A DNA stretch of 64,000 bases from an uncultured Erysipelotrichaceae bacterium (GTDB lineage: Bacteria; Bacillota_I; Bacilli_A; Erysipelotrichales; Erysipelotrichaceae). Each line of letters opens with the position of its first letter. Within the stretch, counting starts at the first letter, position 1. The translations under genes were made by a program, and so were the position numbers. Positions 33,966 to 46,846 of the stretch are shown here, piece after piece. The stretch spans positions 1 to 64,000 of the forward strand of contig CASEPS010000002.1 of the NCBI GenBank assembly GCA_949289855.1, in the 5' to 3' direction. The notes under the pieces were generated by a model, which did not search any database, was not told the DNA's origin, and saw only the letters and a list, made by a program, of their open reading frames with translations.

Positions 33966-34634
33966 TCACTTCAGAATGTCCTTGAGATCCGCAAGGCATT
34001 CTTTACGTACATAGTGGATGGCCATGTTGCCATCATAGTCTTTGAGATTCTTGTCAGCACCAGCATCAAGCAGCGTTTTGACAAGTTCCGGATAACCAAT
34101 ATATGCAGCTCTCATCAATGCTGTGCAGCCTCTTCCATCTGCCGCATTGACATCTGCACCATTCTCAATGAGGAAGGTTATAATTTCCTTCTTATATGCA
34201 TTGACAGCTTCCATCAACGCAGTTCTTCCTTGTTCATCACGGGCATTGACTTCAGCACCCTTGCCAACAAGGTAAATCACAGTATCTGTTTCACCAAGCA
34301 GGGCAGCTCTCATCAGTGCAGTTCTTCCCTTATTATCATGGGAATTGACATCCGCACCAGCATGCAGAAGCATTCTGCAAATTTCTACATGACCCTTCTT
34401 TGCAGCACCCATCAGCGCTGTCTTGTTGTTCTTGTCACGTGCTCTTGGGTTGGCACCATTATCAAGAAGGAAGCGGACAATGTCCTCATACCCTCTCTTG
34501 GCACTTCTCATCAGGGCTGTTCTGCCATCACCATTGGCGACGTTGACATCAGCACCTTTTGAAACCTGCGAGCAGACCCTGGCGAAATCACCTCTGGCTG
34601 CTGCATCGAAGAATTCCTGATTTGTCTGATCCAT
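33966..34634 (-). CDS. Ankyrin-repeat protein
   Basis: 222 residues made almost entirely of six ankyrin repeats; TALMRAA-type cores recur at about 33-residue spacing (GRTALMRSAKRGYEDIVRFL, KTALMGAAKKGHVEICRML and so on). No signal peptide, so cytoplasmic; a pure protein-binding scaffold. Ribosome site AGGAGG 8 bases before the ATG; an out-of-frame ATG lies 4 bases earlier. It is the first gene of a two-gene unit with the EF-G-like GTPase, so the two may act together. Ankyrin proteins are otherwise sparse in such genomes. Confidence 0.9.
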   Translation of the reverse strand: MDQTNQEFFDAAARGDFARVCSQVSKGADVNVANGDGRTALMRSAKRGYEDIVRFLLDNGANPRARDKNNKTALMGAAKKGHVEICRMLLHAGADVNSHDNKGRTALMRAALLGETDTVIYLVGKGAEVNARDEQGRTALMEAVNAYKKEIITFLIENGADVNAADGRGCTALMRAAYIGYPELVKTLLDAGADKNLKDYDGNMAIHYVRKECLADLKDILK

Positions 34635-39004: not shown

Positions 39005-39286
39005 TCAAAGACCATTTTCAGCCATATAGGCTCTGATCTTTTCTTTCTGATCCGCTTTACAAGGCTTGCAATCGTCGAGTTTGGATGTGCCATCCACAAG
39101 TGCCTGGGCCATACCAGAGCAGCCTGGATTACCACAGCCACCACAGTTATACCCCGGCAGCATTGCCAGAATATCCGCAACACGTGTATCTTCCTTGACA
39201 GCCAGTTTCTTGCCGGCAAAACCAAGTCCAATACCGATGATTGCACCAAGAACAAGCATCAGAACAACTGCTTTAATGATTTCCAT
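39005..39286 (-). CDS. rnfB: Miniature RnfB: membrane anchor plus one [4Fe-4S] domain
   Basis: 93 residues, against about 190-330 for normal RnfB. It keeps the N-terminal membrane helix and the [4Fe-4S] domain: Cys48-x2-Cys51-x4-Cys56-x16-Cys73, in GYNCGGCGNPGCSG and DDCKPC. It ends with a charged helix where ordinary RnfB continues into a ferredoxin domain with two more clusters. The stop is clean and followed by the operon terminator, so this is not a broken gene. AGGAGG ribosome site 9 bases before the ATG; overlaps the preceding 67-residue gene by 14 bases. It should pass electrons within the Rnf complex, but how it receives them from RnfC is unclear. Confidence 0.85.
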   Translation of the reverse strand: MEIIKAVVLMLVLGAIIGIGLGFAGKKLAVKEDTRVADILAMLPGYNCGGCGNPGCSGMAQALVDGTSKLDDCKPCKADQKEKIRAYMAENGL

Positions 39287-39476
39287 GATCCAGTTCCTCC
39301 TTGATTTTCTTCATCATATCCCCCCGGATTGCACAATCCGCAATCCCACATGCCTGACAGTCCGTATGGAGGTTTTCACAACCTTCCGGAACCGGTGTGT
39401 TCTTGTTCCACCTATAAGACAATACAACCAGCAAGAACAAGCCAACAACAAGGCCAATTGCGAGGATGATCTTCAT
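39273..39476 (-). CDS. 67-residue membrane-anchored Cys-rich protein in the rnf operon
   Basis: One N-terminal helix (about residues 3-20), then a short soluble part with Cys33-x6-Cys40-x2-Cys43-x4-Cys48, a spacing able to hold an iron-sulfur cluster. The remaining C-terminus is charged. Its ATG lies 3 bases after the rnfA stop with no good ribosome site, so translation is coupled; it overlaps mini-rnfB by 14 bases. Topology matches mini-RnfB (helix, then Cys cluster). I recognise no family. Position and cysteines suggest an electron-carrying subunit that replaces part of the missing RnfB ferredoxin domain; this is inference. Confidence 0.75.
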   Translation of the reverse strand: MKIILAIGLVVGLFLLVVLSYRWNKNTPVPEGCENLHTDCQACGIADCAIRGDMMKKIKEELDHGNH

Positions 39477-39479
39477 AGC

Positions 39480-40052
39480 TTATACCAGTCCGGCAAGAGA
39501 CCCGAAGGCCAGTGCCATAATACCAGCAAGTACGAAGGCAATCGGATTACCCTGGAATGCCTTAGGAATGTCATTGCTCTGCAATCTTGTACGAATTGTC
39601 GCAAAGATAACGAGCATCAGCATGAAGCCAAGTGGAACAGCAATGGAATTGACCATGGTTTCAATCAGGTTATAACTCTGCGTGATGTTATCCATAGCAA
39701 CATAGAGAACGGTGCAGTTTGTAGTGATCAATGGAAGATAAATACCAAGGCTCTTATAGAGAGCTGGACTTGTCTTCTTGACAAACATTTCAACAAGCTG
39801 AACGAATGCTGCAATGAGCAGGATGAAGCAGATCAGCTCCATGTACTCCAGTTCAAATGGAACAAGAATGTAATGATACAGACCCCAGGAAAGAACAGAA
39901 GCACAGAAGATAACGAATGTTACTGCACATCCCATACCGAAGGCTGAGTCAAGTCTTGTGGAAACACCCATGAATGGGCACATACCCAGGAACTTGGAAA
40001 GAATGATGTTATTAATCAGCATTGCACTGATAAACAAAGTAAAGAGATTCAT
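39480..40052 (-). CDS. rnfA: Rnf complex subunit A
   Basis: Six-helix membrane subunit of the ion-translocating ferredoxin:NAD+ oxidoreductase; 190 residues. Family marks: NNIILSKFLGMCPFMGVS in the first helix, with the conserved membrane Cys, and LPLITTNCTVLYVAM with the second Cys; in RnfA/NqrE these cysteines bind a membrane [2Fe-2S] cluster together with RnfE. The start overlaps the rnfE stop as TAATG. Confidence 0.95.
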   Translation of the reverse strand: MNLFTLFISAMLINNIILSKFLGMCPFMGVSTRLDSAFGMGCAVTFVIFCASVLSWGLYHYILVPFELEYMELICFILLIAAFVQLVEMFVKKTSPALYKSLGIYLPLITTNCTVLYVAMDNITQSYNLIETMVNSIAVPLGFMLMLVIFATIRTRLQSNDIPKAFQGNPIAFVLAGIMALAFGSLAGLV

Positions 40053-40696
40053 TATTCAGCCCCCTTTCTGTTCTTACTTTCCTTATACATTGCAATTGCG
40101 GCCGCAAGCAATGCAAAGGTGAAGAACGCACCTGTCTGACTTGTAAATAAGCCAATCTCATAACCTGCAGGCAGAATCTGCAAAGAGAAGATTGTCGCAT
40201 TTGTAAATGGATTGGAAAGTGTCAGAGCACCAGTACCAAGAATCTGTCTGATCAAAGACATCGCAAGCAATGAACATGTGTAGGAGATACCCATCATGAG
40301 ACCATCACCTGCAGACTTGCCAACAGGATTCTTGGAAGCATATGCTTCAGCACGACCAAGGATGATGCAGTTAACAACAATGAGATCGATGAATGCCCCA
40401 AGTGCTGCATACAGATCTGTTGTATATGCCTGCATAAACATCTCAACAACGGTAACCAGTGTTGCGATGATGACGATATAAACCGGAATATGAATGTCAT
40501 CCGGTGTGATGTTTCTCACACAGGAGACAAGGACATTGGACAGCACAAGAACAACTGTAACCGCAACGCCCATACCGATGGCATTGTTCACACTTGTTGT
40601 GATGGCAAGGGTAGAACAGATACCAAGATACAGACCAAATACAGGGTTCTGTGTCAGAAGCTTATCAAAGAAGCTTGTCTTTTTCTTTTCACTCAT
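40052..40696 (-). CDS. rnfE: Rnf complex subunit E
   Basis: 214 residues, six membrane helices. Conserved stretches: NPVFGLYLGICSTLAITTSVNNAIGMG, with one Cys, and LIVVNCIILGRAEAYASKN, with the other; homologous to RnfA and NqrD. The ATG at 40696 has GAGGGG 9 bases upstream; a GTG 6 bases earlier is in the spacer. Followed by rnfA with a one-base overlap. Confidence 0.95.
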   Translation of the reverse strand: MSEKKKTSFFDKLLTQNPVFGLYLGICSTLAITTSVNNAIGMGVAVTVVLVLSNVLVSCVRNITPDDIHIPVYIVIIATLVTVVEMFMQAYTTDLYAALGAFIDLIVVNCIILGRAEAYASKNPVGKSAGDGLMMGISYTCSLLAMSLIRQILGTGALTLSNPFTNATIFSLQILPAGYEIGLFTSQTGAFFTFALLAAAIAMYKESKNRKGAE

Positions 40697-40711
40697 TTTC
40701 ACTTACCCCTC

Positions 40712-41262: not shown

Positions 41263-42756
41263 TTATTCAGCAGCTGCATCTAATGCAGCCTGTACCATTG
41301 CCTGAATGGAACCAGAAGTATAGGTTGCAGAACTCACTGCATCCACTTCATCCGCAGAAGAAACACCTTCATATGCAGCAAGTGCATCATCGCTTGTTGC
41401 CTTGTCACCAACACCCTCTGTATCACCAAAGTGTGTCAGTTCAACAGATTCAACTGTCATATCAGAAAGATTGATTGTTACTTCTGCTTCGTTTTCGCTA
41501 TAGTTATCGCCTGCTTCTGTCACAAGGCCAAAGCCCTTGGCAGAGCAGTCATAGACAGCTGTCGTACCATCGTTGGAAACTTCCGTTGCCACAGCATCAA
41601 ACTGTGCAAGATCAAGCGTTTCACTGCCTGTTTCTTCCTCACCTGTTGTTTCTTCAACTGGTGTTGTTGTCGAGGAAGAAGTATCTTCAGCCTCAGCTGG
41701 CTTGAGTGTTACACCTACCGCAATGCCAACAAGGGCAGTCAGAGCACAGATGATAACTGTTCTCATCTGAATCTTTTTGATGTCCTTGATAAGAGAACCA
41801 TCACAGGCAAGATCAATTGCCGGTGTCAACATATTCATAAGCAGAATGGAATACAATGCACCATCTGGCAGATTGGACTTCCATCTGATCAGAAGTGTGA
41901 GTACTGCTGCACCAACCGCAAAGATATAACGGCCAGAAATAGTAACTGGTGAAGTAACCGGATCTGTCAACATGAACACACCACAGAACATGACACCACC
42001 CGCAAGCAGGTTGATGCACATGAATTCAATACCCTGTCCTGTCGCAAGACCTGCAATCAGGGAAATGATGGCAATTGTACCAACATAGACAAGTGGTGTT
42101 CTCCAGTTGAGATCCTTACGCCATGTCAGGAATGCATAGCAGAGAATAATCAGCAATGCACAGGATCCGCCGATTACCGAAGCATAGTTACCAATCAGCA
42201 TGTTGCCAAAGCCGCCAAACTCCTGGATATATGCACCAAGGTTGAACGGATCCATGACCCATCCAGCACTCTGCATCGGCGCAAGTGGTGTAGCACCTGT
42301 CACAAAGTCAGGTGAAGCAGAAGCGGAGAAGCTGTTGGTGATAATAGCTGCACCAAAAGCTGCCGGGTTGAAGATGTTCTGACCAAACCCACCAAAGACG
42401 AGCTTGCCGAAGATGAGGGCAAGAGATGTCGCAACAATGACCGCATAGTAACTTGTATCAATCTTGGAAATCAGAACGATGATCAATGCTGTTACCCATG
42501 CATAAGAATGGGTAAGACCATGTCTGATATCCTTGCCGCGGATCTTGAAATAGACCGCTTCAGTCACAAGCGCAGAAACAACTGCGCATAATGCAAGCAA
42601 TACGACGCGGATGCCATAGTTCATACCATAGCTGACGCCATACCATACGGCGGAGAATGTCAATACTGCAAGAAGGCAGATGGTGACATCCTTCATGATT
42701 TCTGATGTGGATTTGCTGTCTCTGTAGTTTGGAGACGCACGGAATGTGAATTTCAT
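41263..42756 (-). CDS. rnfD: Rnf complex subunit D fused to a second FMN-binding domain
   Basis: 497 residues, about 150 more than usual. Residues 1-350 are the RnfD membrane subunit with about nine helices and the flavinylation site TGATPL (Thr156). After a Ser/Thr/Glu-rich linker (about 360-390) comes an extra domain (about 395-497) ending DAVSSATYTSGSIQAM, the FMN-binding fold seen in RnfG and NqrC; the usual SGAT is SSAT here. Start ATG overlaps the rnfC stop as TAATG, with GGAGGTG upstream, ruling out the longer frame. The extra domain would sit outside and carry a further FMN if ApbE accepts the variant motif. Confidence 0.9.
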   Translation of the reverse strand: MKFTFRASPNYRDSKSTSEIMKDVTICLLAVLTFSAVWYGVSYGMNYGIRVVLLALCAVVSALVTEAVYFKIRGKDIRHGLTHSYAWVTALIIVLISKIDTSYYAVIVATSLALIFGKLVFGGFGQNIFNPAAFGAAIITNSFSASASPDFVTGATPLAPMQSAGWVMDPFNLGAYIQEFGGFGNMLIGNYASVIGGSCALLIILCYAFLTWRKDLNWRTPLVYVGTIAIISLIAGLATGQGIEFMCINLLAGGVMFCGVFMLTDPVTSPVTISGRYIFAVGAAVLTLLIRWKSNLPDGALYSILLMNMLTPAIDLACDGSLIKDIKKIQMRTVIICALTALVGIAVGVTLKPAEAEDTSSSTTTPVEETTGEEETGSETLDLAQFDAVATEVSNDGTTAVYDCSAKGFGLVTEAGDNYSENEAEVTINLSDMTVESVELTHFGDTEGVGDKATSDDALAAYEGVSSADEVDAVSSATYTSGSIQAMVQAALDAAAE

Positions 42757-45532: not shown

Positions 45533-45683
45533 AATAATCTCCTCCTCATCCGGCAAACCGGATATATAATGGCAATATTTTAACATAAATTCTTACATTT
45601 CAATATGATTGATACCATTTTCGTGTATATTCATGCACTTTTCATCCAAAAGATGTGTTTGTACAAAGTCAGGCGAAGAACAA

Positions 45684-45712
45684 TTGGAGACCATGAAGCA
45701 CTGTGCTATAAT
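45684..45712 (+). promoter_or_regulatory. apbE promoter, probably giving a leaderless mRNA
   Basis: TTGGAG (45684-45689), 17-base spacer, TATAAT (45707-45712). Six bases follow before the ATG at 45719. Confidence 0.75.
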
Positions 45713-45718
45713 GCAAAA

Positions 45719-46846
45719 ATGATGAAAAAGAGAAACCTGATCTGCGCATCCCTTGCCCTGCTGCTTGCCGGATGCAGCACAACCCAAAAAGCGACCATGG
45801 AAGACCTCTATTCCAACATCTCTCTCGATGCCGGATTCGATACGGTCCTCTACTACCAGGAATATAACAGTGATACAGAAGCTTCTAAGGCACACTTTGA
45901 AGAAGTTGTATCCCTGTTTTCCCACTACAACGAACTATTTGACATCTATAACGACTATGAAGGTGTTTCAAACATCAAAACCATCAATGACTTCGCAGGT
46001 GTTTCCCCGGTTGTGGTAGACCCTGTCATCATTGAAATGTTAAATGAGGCAAAATCTTTCAGCACATTGTCCAATGACGAATTCGATATCACCATCGGCA
46101 GTCTTCTCAAAGTATGGCACAACTACCGTGAAGAAGGTCAGGCACTGAATGAAGAAGGCAAAGATGGACATGTCCCAACTGTAACAGAACTGGAAGAAGC
46201 TTCCAGGTTCAAAGGATGGAACAAGGTCATCATCGATGAAGAAGCTTCTACCGTCTATATTACCGACCCGGAAGTCTCTTTGGATGTTGGTGGTATAGCC
46301 AAAGGCTTTGCGACCGAAAAGATTGCGGAAACATTAGAACAAAAAGAAGACATTGGCACTGTTGTCATCAATGCCGGTGGTAATAACCGCACCATCCATA
46401 CAAAACCAGATGGTTCCCCATGGCGTGTCAGTATCCAGAACCCGGATGGAGGAAACAGCTTCCTCACCGTTTCGGCTGAAGATTCTGTATCCTTTGTCAC
46501 CTCAGGTGACTATGAACGCTATTACACAGCAGAAGATGGCAACCGTTATCACCACATCATCAACCCGGACACATTATTTCCAGCAGACCTCTACCGCAGT
46601 GTGACCATCATCACAAAAGATTCCGGAGCAGCAGACTGCCTCTCTACAGCTCTGTTTACAACATCCATTGAAGAAGGCAAACAGATGCTTGAAGCCTATG
46701 AAGAAGAAAGCGGCAATACAGCAGATGCCATCTGGATTATGGACAAAGACAAAGCTGACACAAAAGAAGACGGAAAAGAACACATGGACTTCTATATTGT
46801 CGCAACCGACAATATCAAAGATGACCTCACCTTCTCCATCAACTGA
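45719..46846 (+). CDS. apbE: FAD:protein FMN transferase (lipoprotein)
   Basis: Attaches FMN to Thr of RnfG and RnfD. 375 residues from the first of two tandem ATGs (45719, 45722). Lipoprotein signal with lipobox Leu-Ala-Gly-Cys, so anchored outside, where the Rnf flavin domains are. ApbE motifs: SLDVGGIAKGFATEKI, VVINAGGNNRTI, TSGDYERYY and HHIINPDT. No Shine-Dalgarno; a perfect TATAAT ends 6 bases before the first ATG, so the mRNA is probably leaderless. The longer frame from 45605 crosses the promoter and is rejected. Its placement beside rnf fits its job. Confidence 0.93.
   Translation: MMKKRNLICASLALLLAGCSTTQKATMEDLYSNISLDAGFDTVLYYQEYNSDTEASKAHFEEVVSLFSHYNELFDIYNDYEGVSNIKTINDFAGVSPVVVDPVIIEMLNEAKSFSTLSNDEFDITIGSLLKVWHNYREEGQALNEEGKDGHVPTVTELEEASRFKGWNKVIIDEEASTVYITDPEVSLDVGGIAKGFATEKIAETLEQKEDIGTVVINAGGNNRTIHTKPDGSPWRVSIQNPDGGNSFLTVSAEDSVSFVTSGDYERYYTAEDGNRYHHIINPDTLFPADLYRSVTIITKDSGAADCLSTALFTTSIEEGKQMLEAYEEESGNTADAIWIMDKDKADTKEDGKEHMDFYIVATDNIKDDLTFSIN

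Follow-up and report, generated by a model that had tools for sequence, protein, structure and literature searches.

The rnf operon of an uncultured Erysipelotrichaceae bacterium encodes, immediately ahead of an RnfB of a known short kind, a conserved Rnf accessory protein that appears not to have been described before, here called X. X, a small membrane protein, is conserved and linked to Rnf, and the RnfB beside it, which we term mini-RnfB, is reduced to the membrane helix and first [4Fe-4S] domain. Rnf is one of the main respiratory enzymes of anaerobes, and, to our knowledge, the way in which the buried [2Fe-2S] cluster of RnfA-RnfE is installed is not settled for Rnf. X is a candidate for the missing Rnf maturation factor, or else a new subunit.

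The window, by which we mean the whole 64,000-nucleotide stretch of DNA analysed, carries the rnf genes C, D, G, E, A and B in order, and these, with X placed between the last two, form an rnfCDGEA-X-B operon. Reading along the minus strand, the order is rnfC, rnfD, rnfG, rnfE, rnfA, X and mini-rnfB. The features used below are the following, the [2Fe-2S] site of RnfA-RnfE being referred to that of A. woodii (PMC11889175).

42756..44051, minus strand: rnfC, with RnfC_N, Complex1_51K and SLBB domains and two [4Fe-4S] motifs
41263..42756, minus strand: rnfD, with a second FMN_bind domain at residues 425-493 and, by eye, an extra C-terminal helix
40712..41254, minus strand: rnfG, FMN-binding, with the flavinylation motif SGAT-x-TS
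40052..40702, minus strand: rnfE, whose Cys29 and Cys112 are placed in the [2Fe-2S] site on motif context
39480..40052, minus strand: rnfA, contributing Cys25 and Cys113 to the RnfA-RnfE [2Fe-2S] site
39273..39476, minus strand: X, 67 residues, with a single helix at residues 2-24 and Cys33/40/43/48
39333-39380, minus strand: the stretch within which the Cys codons of X lie
39296..39302, minus strand: Shine-Dalgarno sequence AAGGAGG of mini-rnfB, within the 3' end of X
39005..39286, minus strand: mini-rnfB, 93 residues, with a helix and a PF04060 FeS domain, Cys48/51/56/73
45605..46846, plus strand: apbE, an FMN transferase and Rnf/NQR maturation factor, near the rnf operon and divergent from it

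An earlier note on this DNA had described two clusters in RnfC, an otherwise intact rnfCDGEA, and an extra 67-residue C-x6-C-x2-C-x4-C protein overlapping the following rnfB by 14 bases. Domain and motif matches to C, D, G, E and A bear out the first two points and the coordinates the third: the start of X follows the stop of rnfA by 3 bases, and X and mini-rnfB share positions 39273-39286. Two further features of the window were recorded. The second FMN_bind domain, at the C-terminus of RnfD, has a flavinylation-like motif, S-S-A-T-x-T-S, and suggests an additional way out for electrons on the extracytosolic side; many related loci encode an RnfD of comparable length (480-650 aa). Positions 33966-34634 of the minus strand encode a protein made almost entirely of ankyrin repeats, adjoining an EF-G-like GTPase.

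X is a real gene. A single-protein search of 196 genomes of the family matched 137 of them, covering 48 of 60 genera, and a profile of X (A1, 26 members) has ten invariant residues (N24, T27, P28, P30, G32, C33, E34, C40, C43 and C48); together, the family-wide conservation and the invariant residues rule out a chance ORF. The profile matches 102 of 344 genomes of a phylum sample, the matches listed all falling within the window's own class. In a collection of genome contigs a search with the single sequence gave no matches, and one with the profile gave 168 relatives. The spacing C-x6-C-x2-C-x4-C formed by Cys33/40/43/48 is kept exactly in 97 of 124 HMM-detected sequences; most of the others are respaced, a few have three cysteines only, and the first gap ranges from 5 to 9 residues. 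The C-x2-C-x4-C triplet is kept in all 124, save for the last spacing in two. Lysine and arginine are more frequent after the helix than before it in 121 of the 124, and the Cys loop is predicted to be cytoplasmic. An AlphaFold model of X is confident for helix 2-24 and gives the Cys loop a pLDDT of about 58-59, without a confident geometry for a Cys site.

No relative of X was found among solved structures, no curated family of Pfam or NCBIfam fits it, no X-RnfB fusion was noticed, and no description was found in the literature searched, so that the protein seems to be undescribed. An origin as a partial duplication of RnfB was also considered; a profile comparison assigns a probability of 55% over the helix and CxxCxxxxC, which is too weak to claim it.

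The second small protein is readily placed. Mini-RnfB has the N-terminal helix and C-x2-C-x4-C-x16-C FeS domain of RnfB (PF04060, E 2.9e-13, residues 43-75) and matches the first ~90 residues of TIGR01944 RnfB, scoring 60.3 bits against the full model's cut-off of 68.7; we name it RnfB because of its position in the operon and the Thermotoga maritima precedent discussed below. Its profile aligns with the N-terminal ~90 residues of RnfB chains in the PDB (best E 1.2e-18), a region made up of the helix and of FdI (also called B8), the first FeS domain, which is mobile and passes an electron to the [2Fe-2S] of RnfA-RnfE (PMC9588780, PMC11889175, PMC12174285). The window protein ends 20 residues past its last Cys, mini-RnfBs generally ending 17-39 past it, and a domain search detected no Fer4 match, which agrees with the earlier reading of an RnfB that stops at 93 residues without its ferredoxin domain. 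A full-length rnfB elsewhere in the genome, named in advance as fatal to that reading, was looked for and not found, since the whole 2.33 Mb, 95.7%-complete assembly contains a single PF04060 domain, that of mini-RnfB itself. Elsewhere in the sample, a 183-residue open frame with two PF04060 domains downstream of X (G401:C151:30919-31278) is a mini-RnfB with a doubled FeS domain.

X and mini-RnfB travel together. X lies between rnfA and mini-rnfB in all 79 named loci long enough to analyse, a figure that is not an unbiased frequency, as these loci were chosen by X score; they include Lactimicrobium massiliense, Bulleidia extructa, Holdemania, Faecalitalea, Faecalicoccus and Absicoccus as well as MAGs of Anaeroplasmataceae and Acholeplasmatales. 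Among the matches listed for the phylum sample, 86 genes (87 PF04060 domains) stand directly downstream of X, their open frames all 92-183 residues long, and full-length RnfB frames of 266 and 292 residues occur without X. Across the 344 genomes, X and PF04060 occur together in 101, X alone in 1, PF04060 alone in 21 and neither in 221; a PF04060 protein is thus present in 101 of 102 X-positive genomes, and X in 1 of 222 genomes without PF04060. Shared ancestry inflates the Fisher p-value (about 1e-64), so only the pattern of co-occurrence counts. In three operons with full-length RnfB (L171, L191 and L192; 260-270 aa), rnfB directly follows rnfA, and no X match was found in any of their genomes. 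On a tree of RnfA+RnfE from 64 operons these three form one clade on a long branch, and the absence of X beside full-length RnfB is therefore a single independent contrast.

The association is looser among more distant relatives. Mini-RnfB stands without a neighbouring X in 15 of the 64 sampled operons, 14 of the 15 in one part of the RnfA+RnfE tree, on which the distribution of X takes no fewer than three changes. Another rnf operon nevertheless has X in four of the genomes with X-less operons (G219, G237, G289 and G311), and of ten genomes with only X-less mini-RnfB operons, nine have an X-like gene elsewhere. Such unlinked copies, most of which have three cysteines, often lie between aspS and a dCMP-deaminase-like gene (loci L240, L241, L242, L244 and L185; gene names by eye). 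They are no proof of replacement and may be paralogues, because some genomes contain both a linked X and an unlinked X-like copy. In G352, G400 and G415 a diverged one-helix Cys ORF fills the gap between rnfA and rnfB, and in G304 no X was detectable anywhere in the genome. The proposal that X and mini-RnfB belong together and to the Rnf operon is upheld by their co-occurrence and by the absence of X with full-length RnfB; that X might be missing from relatives with mini-RnfB proved untrue within the family, while the distant relatives of the class are mixed.

A second type of Rnf was seen in the same survey (L208 9400-11301, L209 4674-6683, L210 4676-6628 and L204 4626-6551). Its RnfG has 633-669 residues and is perhaps multi-flavinylated, as in PMC8238504; its RnfC is shorter (about 406 aa), its mini-RnfB is without X, and its genomes also carry an X-type operon. 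G289 and G311 (L203, L204, L207 and L208) each have three separate rnf operons, one with X and two without.

What X does can be approached from these patterns. It could be a structural redox subunit that holds a [4Fe-4S] cluster at the cytoplasmic face of the membrane and, with mini-RnfB, replaces the RnfB ferredoxin domain as a docking site and relay, which we regard as possible but doubtful, though it is the chief rival of the reading favoured below. It is equally doubtful, in the wider form of this idea, that X adds a seventh, undescribed redox subunit to an Rnf variant spread across the class, with X, carrying a [4Fe-4S], and mini-RnfB as a two-protein electron-entry module in place of the RnfB polyferredoxin. 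The near-perfect pairing with mini-RnfB and the absence with full-length RnfB speak for such a subunit, as do the overlap of the two genes, the topology common to X and RnfB, a C-x2-C-x4-C triplet identical to that of the RnfB FeS domain, and the E-value of 1.2e-4 in the X/mini-RnfB profile comparison, a single comparison. Yet the Rnf of T. maritima is functional with an RnfB of one cluster and without an X in its described gene order, some lineages have three cysteines only or a shifted first cysteine, and mini-RnfB operons without a neighbouring X exist. The slimmed electron path through X that the earlier note had put forward is unproven: drifting cysteines, three-Cys forms and unlinked copies fit an NqrM-like factor at least as well.

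We favour, at a little under an even chance, a role of this latter kind, in which X helps to install the [2Fe-2S] of RnfA-RnfE and ferredoxin reduces mini-RnfB directly. X would then stand outside the electron path as a dedicated maturation protein, anchored by its one helix, whose membrane-near cytoplasmic cysteines would supply the buried site with iron or an FeS cluster. Its conservation, its placement in the operon directly after rnfA, where delivery to RnfA-RnfE would be apt, its tracking of the Rnf genotype and the predicted cytoplasmic Cys loop are all consistent with this role, and variation in cysteine number, spacing and linkage is tolerable for a carrier but unusual for a relay. NqrM, whose plan X matches, is described in a review as a small membrane protein that is apparently necessary for the [2Fe-2S] of Na+-NQR, held by NqrD and NqrE (PMC12174285), and it was predicted to supply these two subunits with Fe (PMC6209661). 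Profile comparison of X with NqrM, however, finds no homology (hhalign probability 18.9%), and PF04400 (NqrM, DUF539) gave no X match in 10 genomes; X is therefore no NqrM by membership, and the plan alone is alike. Several further points weigh against a maturation role. The absence of X coincides exactly with a full-length RnfB, a pattern more directly explained by a redox or docking role; the unlinked X-like copies may be paralogues that serve a different purpose; the AlphaFold model offers no confident Cys-site geometry; and other Rnf lineages manage, as far as we know, without a known NqrM-like protein. RseC, another protein associated with Rnf and considered as a substitute factor in genomes lacking X, does not help, since it was above its family cut-off in none of the 50 genomes tested, those with full-length RnfB included, and the comparison does not discriminate.

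It is unlikely, but conceivable, that X is a small cofactor-free or regulatory subunit whose helix packs against mini-RnfB and RnfA-RnfE, keeping the short RnfB in position, and whose cysteines sense redox state or bind metal transiently. An accessory subunit without a cofactor is known in RnfH of A. vinelandii Rnf1 (PMC12174285), and the number of cysteines in X can vary; the persistence of C-x2-C-x4-C across the 124 sequences, with its two last-spacing exceptions, suggests metal binding instead. Far less probable still is that X belongs to the general iron-handling, FeoB-associated Cys-rich family PF12669 and is in the rnf operon by chance. Thirteen of the 26 X members match that family weakly (best E 0.0013) and share its overall plan, but these scores lie below the gathering cut-off, which largely refutes membership; moreover, the window's X has no match, X tracks the Rnf genes, and the N-x2-TPxPxGCE signature is its own. 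A distant common origin of X and PF12669 is conceivable.

For a mini-RnfB with one cluster, direct reduction by soluble ferredoxin, as the earlier note had supposed, is plausible and well supported by precedent. Clostridial ferredoxin donates electrons to purified T. maritima Rnf, a complex that pumps Na+ (PMC7414866), and the window genome encodes PFOR (pyruvate:ferredoxin oxidoreductase) together with a 66-residue ferredoxin-type open frame. Electrons would then pass from ferredoxin, reduced by PFOR, to the [4Fe-4S] of mini-RnfB, and from there through the [2Fe-2S] of RnfA-RnfE, RnfG, RnfD and RnfC to NAD. The genes and their operon, conservation, co-occurrence and charge-based topology are established; metal binding by X, any role that it has in assembly or electron flow, and the docking of ferredoxin are steps that we infer.

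The X-mini-RnfB architecture is usual among the Erysipelotrichaceae-type bacteria sampled, and for that reason clostridial Rnf is not by itself a sufficient guide to their energy metabolism. Mini-RnfB also provides a small natural system in which to ask what purpose the polyferredoxin part of RnfB serves.

Comparison with described systems separates what is familiar here from what is new. The RnfB of T. maritima (10.56 kDa, one predicted [4Fe-4S]; PMC7414866, and also noted in PMC9588780) likewise consists of the helix and first FeS domain and ends its rnf operon; a short one-cluster RnfB is by itself not new. The T. maritima operon is described as rnfCDGEAB, without an X gene (PMC7414866), and its lineage is distant. 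Canonical clostridial RnfB (C. tetanomorphum 7zc6, A. woodii 9eri) shares with mini-RnfB the N-terminal helix and the FdI/B8 domain that is the donor to RnfA-RnfE, but has at least two more [4Fe-4S] clusters beyond the point where mini-RnfB ends. The FeoB-associated proteins of PF12669 resemble X in overall build, a lone helix with a short Cys-rich tail after it; X, however, falls below the family cut-off, and a genuine member is encoded separately in the same genome (C40:7551). The closest functional likeness, one of plan only, is to NqrM, which is also small, with one N-terminal helix and four membrane-near cysteines, and linked to the genes of an NQR/Rnf pump. Genuine NqrM sequences from the database have a helix and then GSC-x10-C-x-C-x3-C, and nqrM adjoins, where annotated, either apbE or nqrF, the gene for the electron-input subunit of a pump homologous to Rnf. 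The cysteines of NqrM are thus spaced C-x10-C-x-C-x3-C and those of X C-x5..9-C-x2-C-x4-C, and whereas NqrM serves Na+-NQR, X accompanies Rnf.
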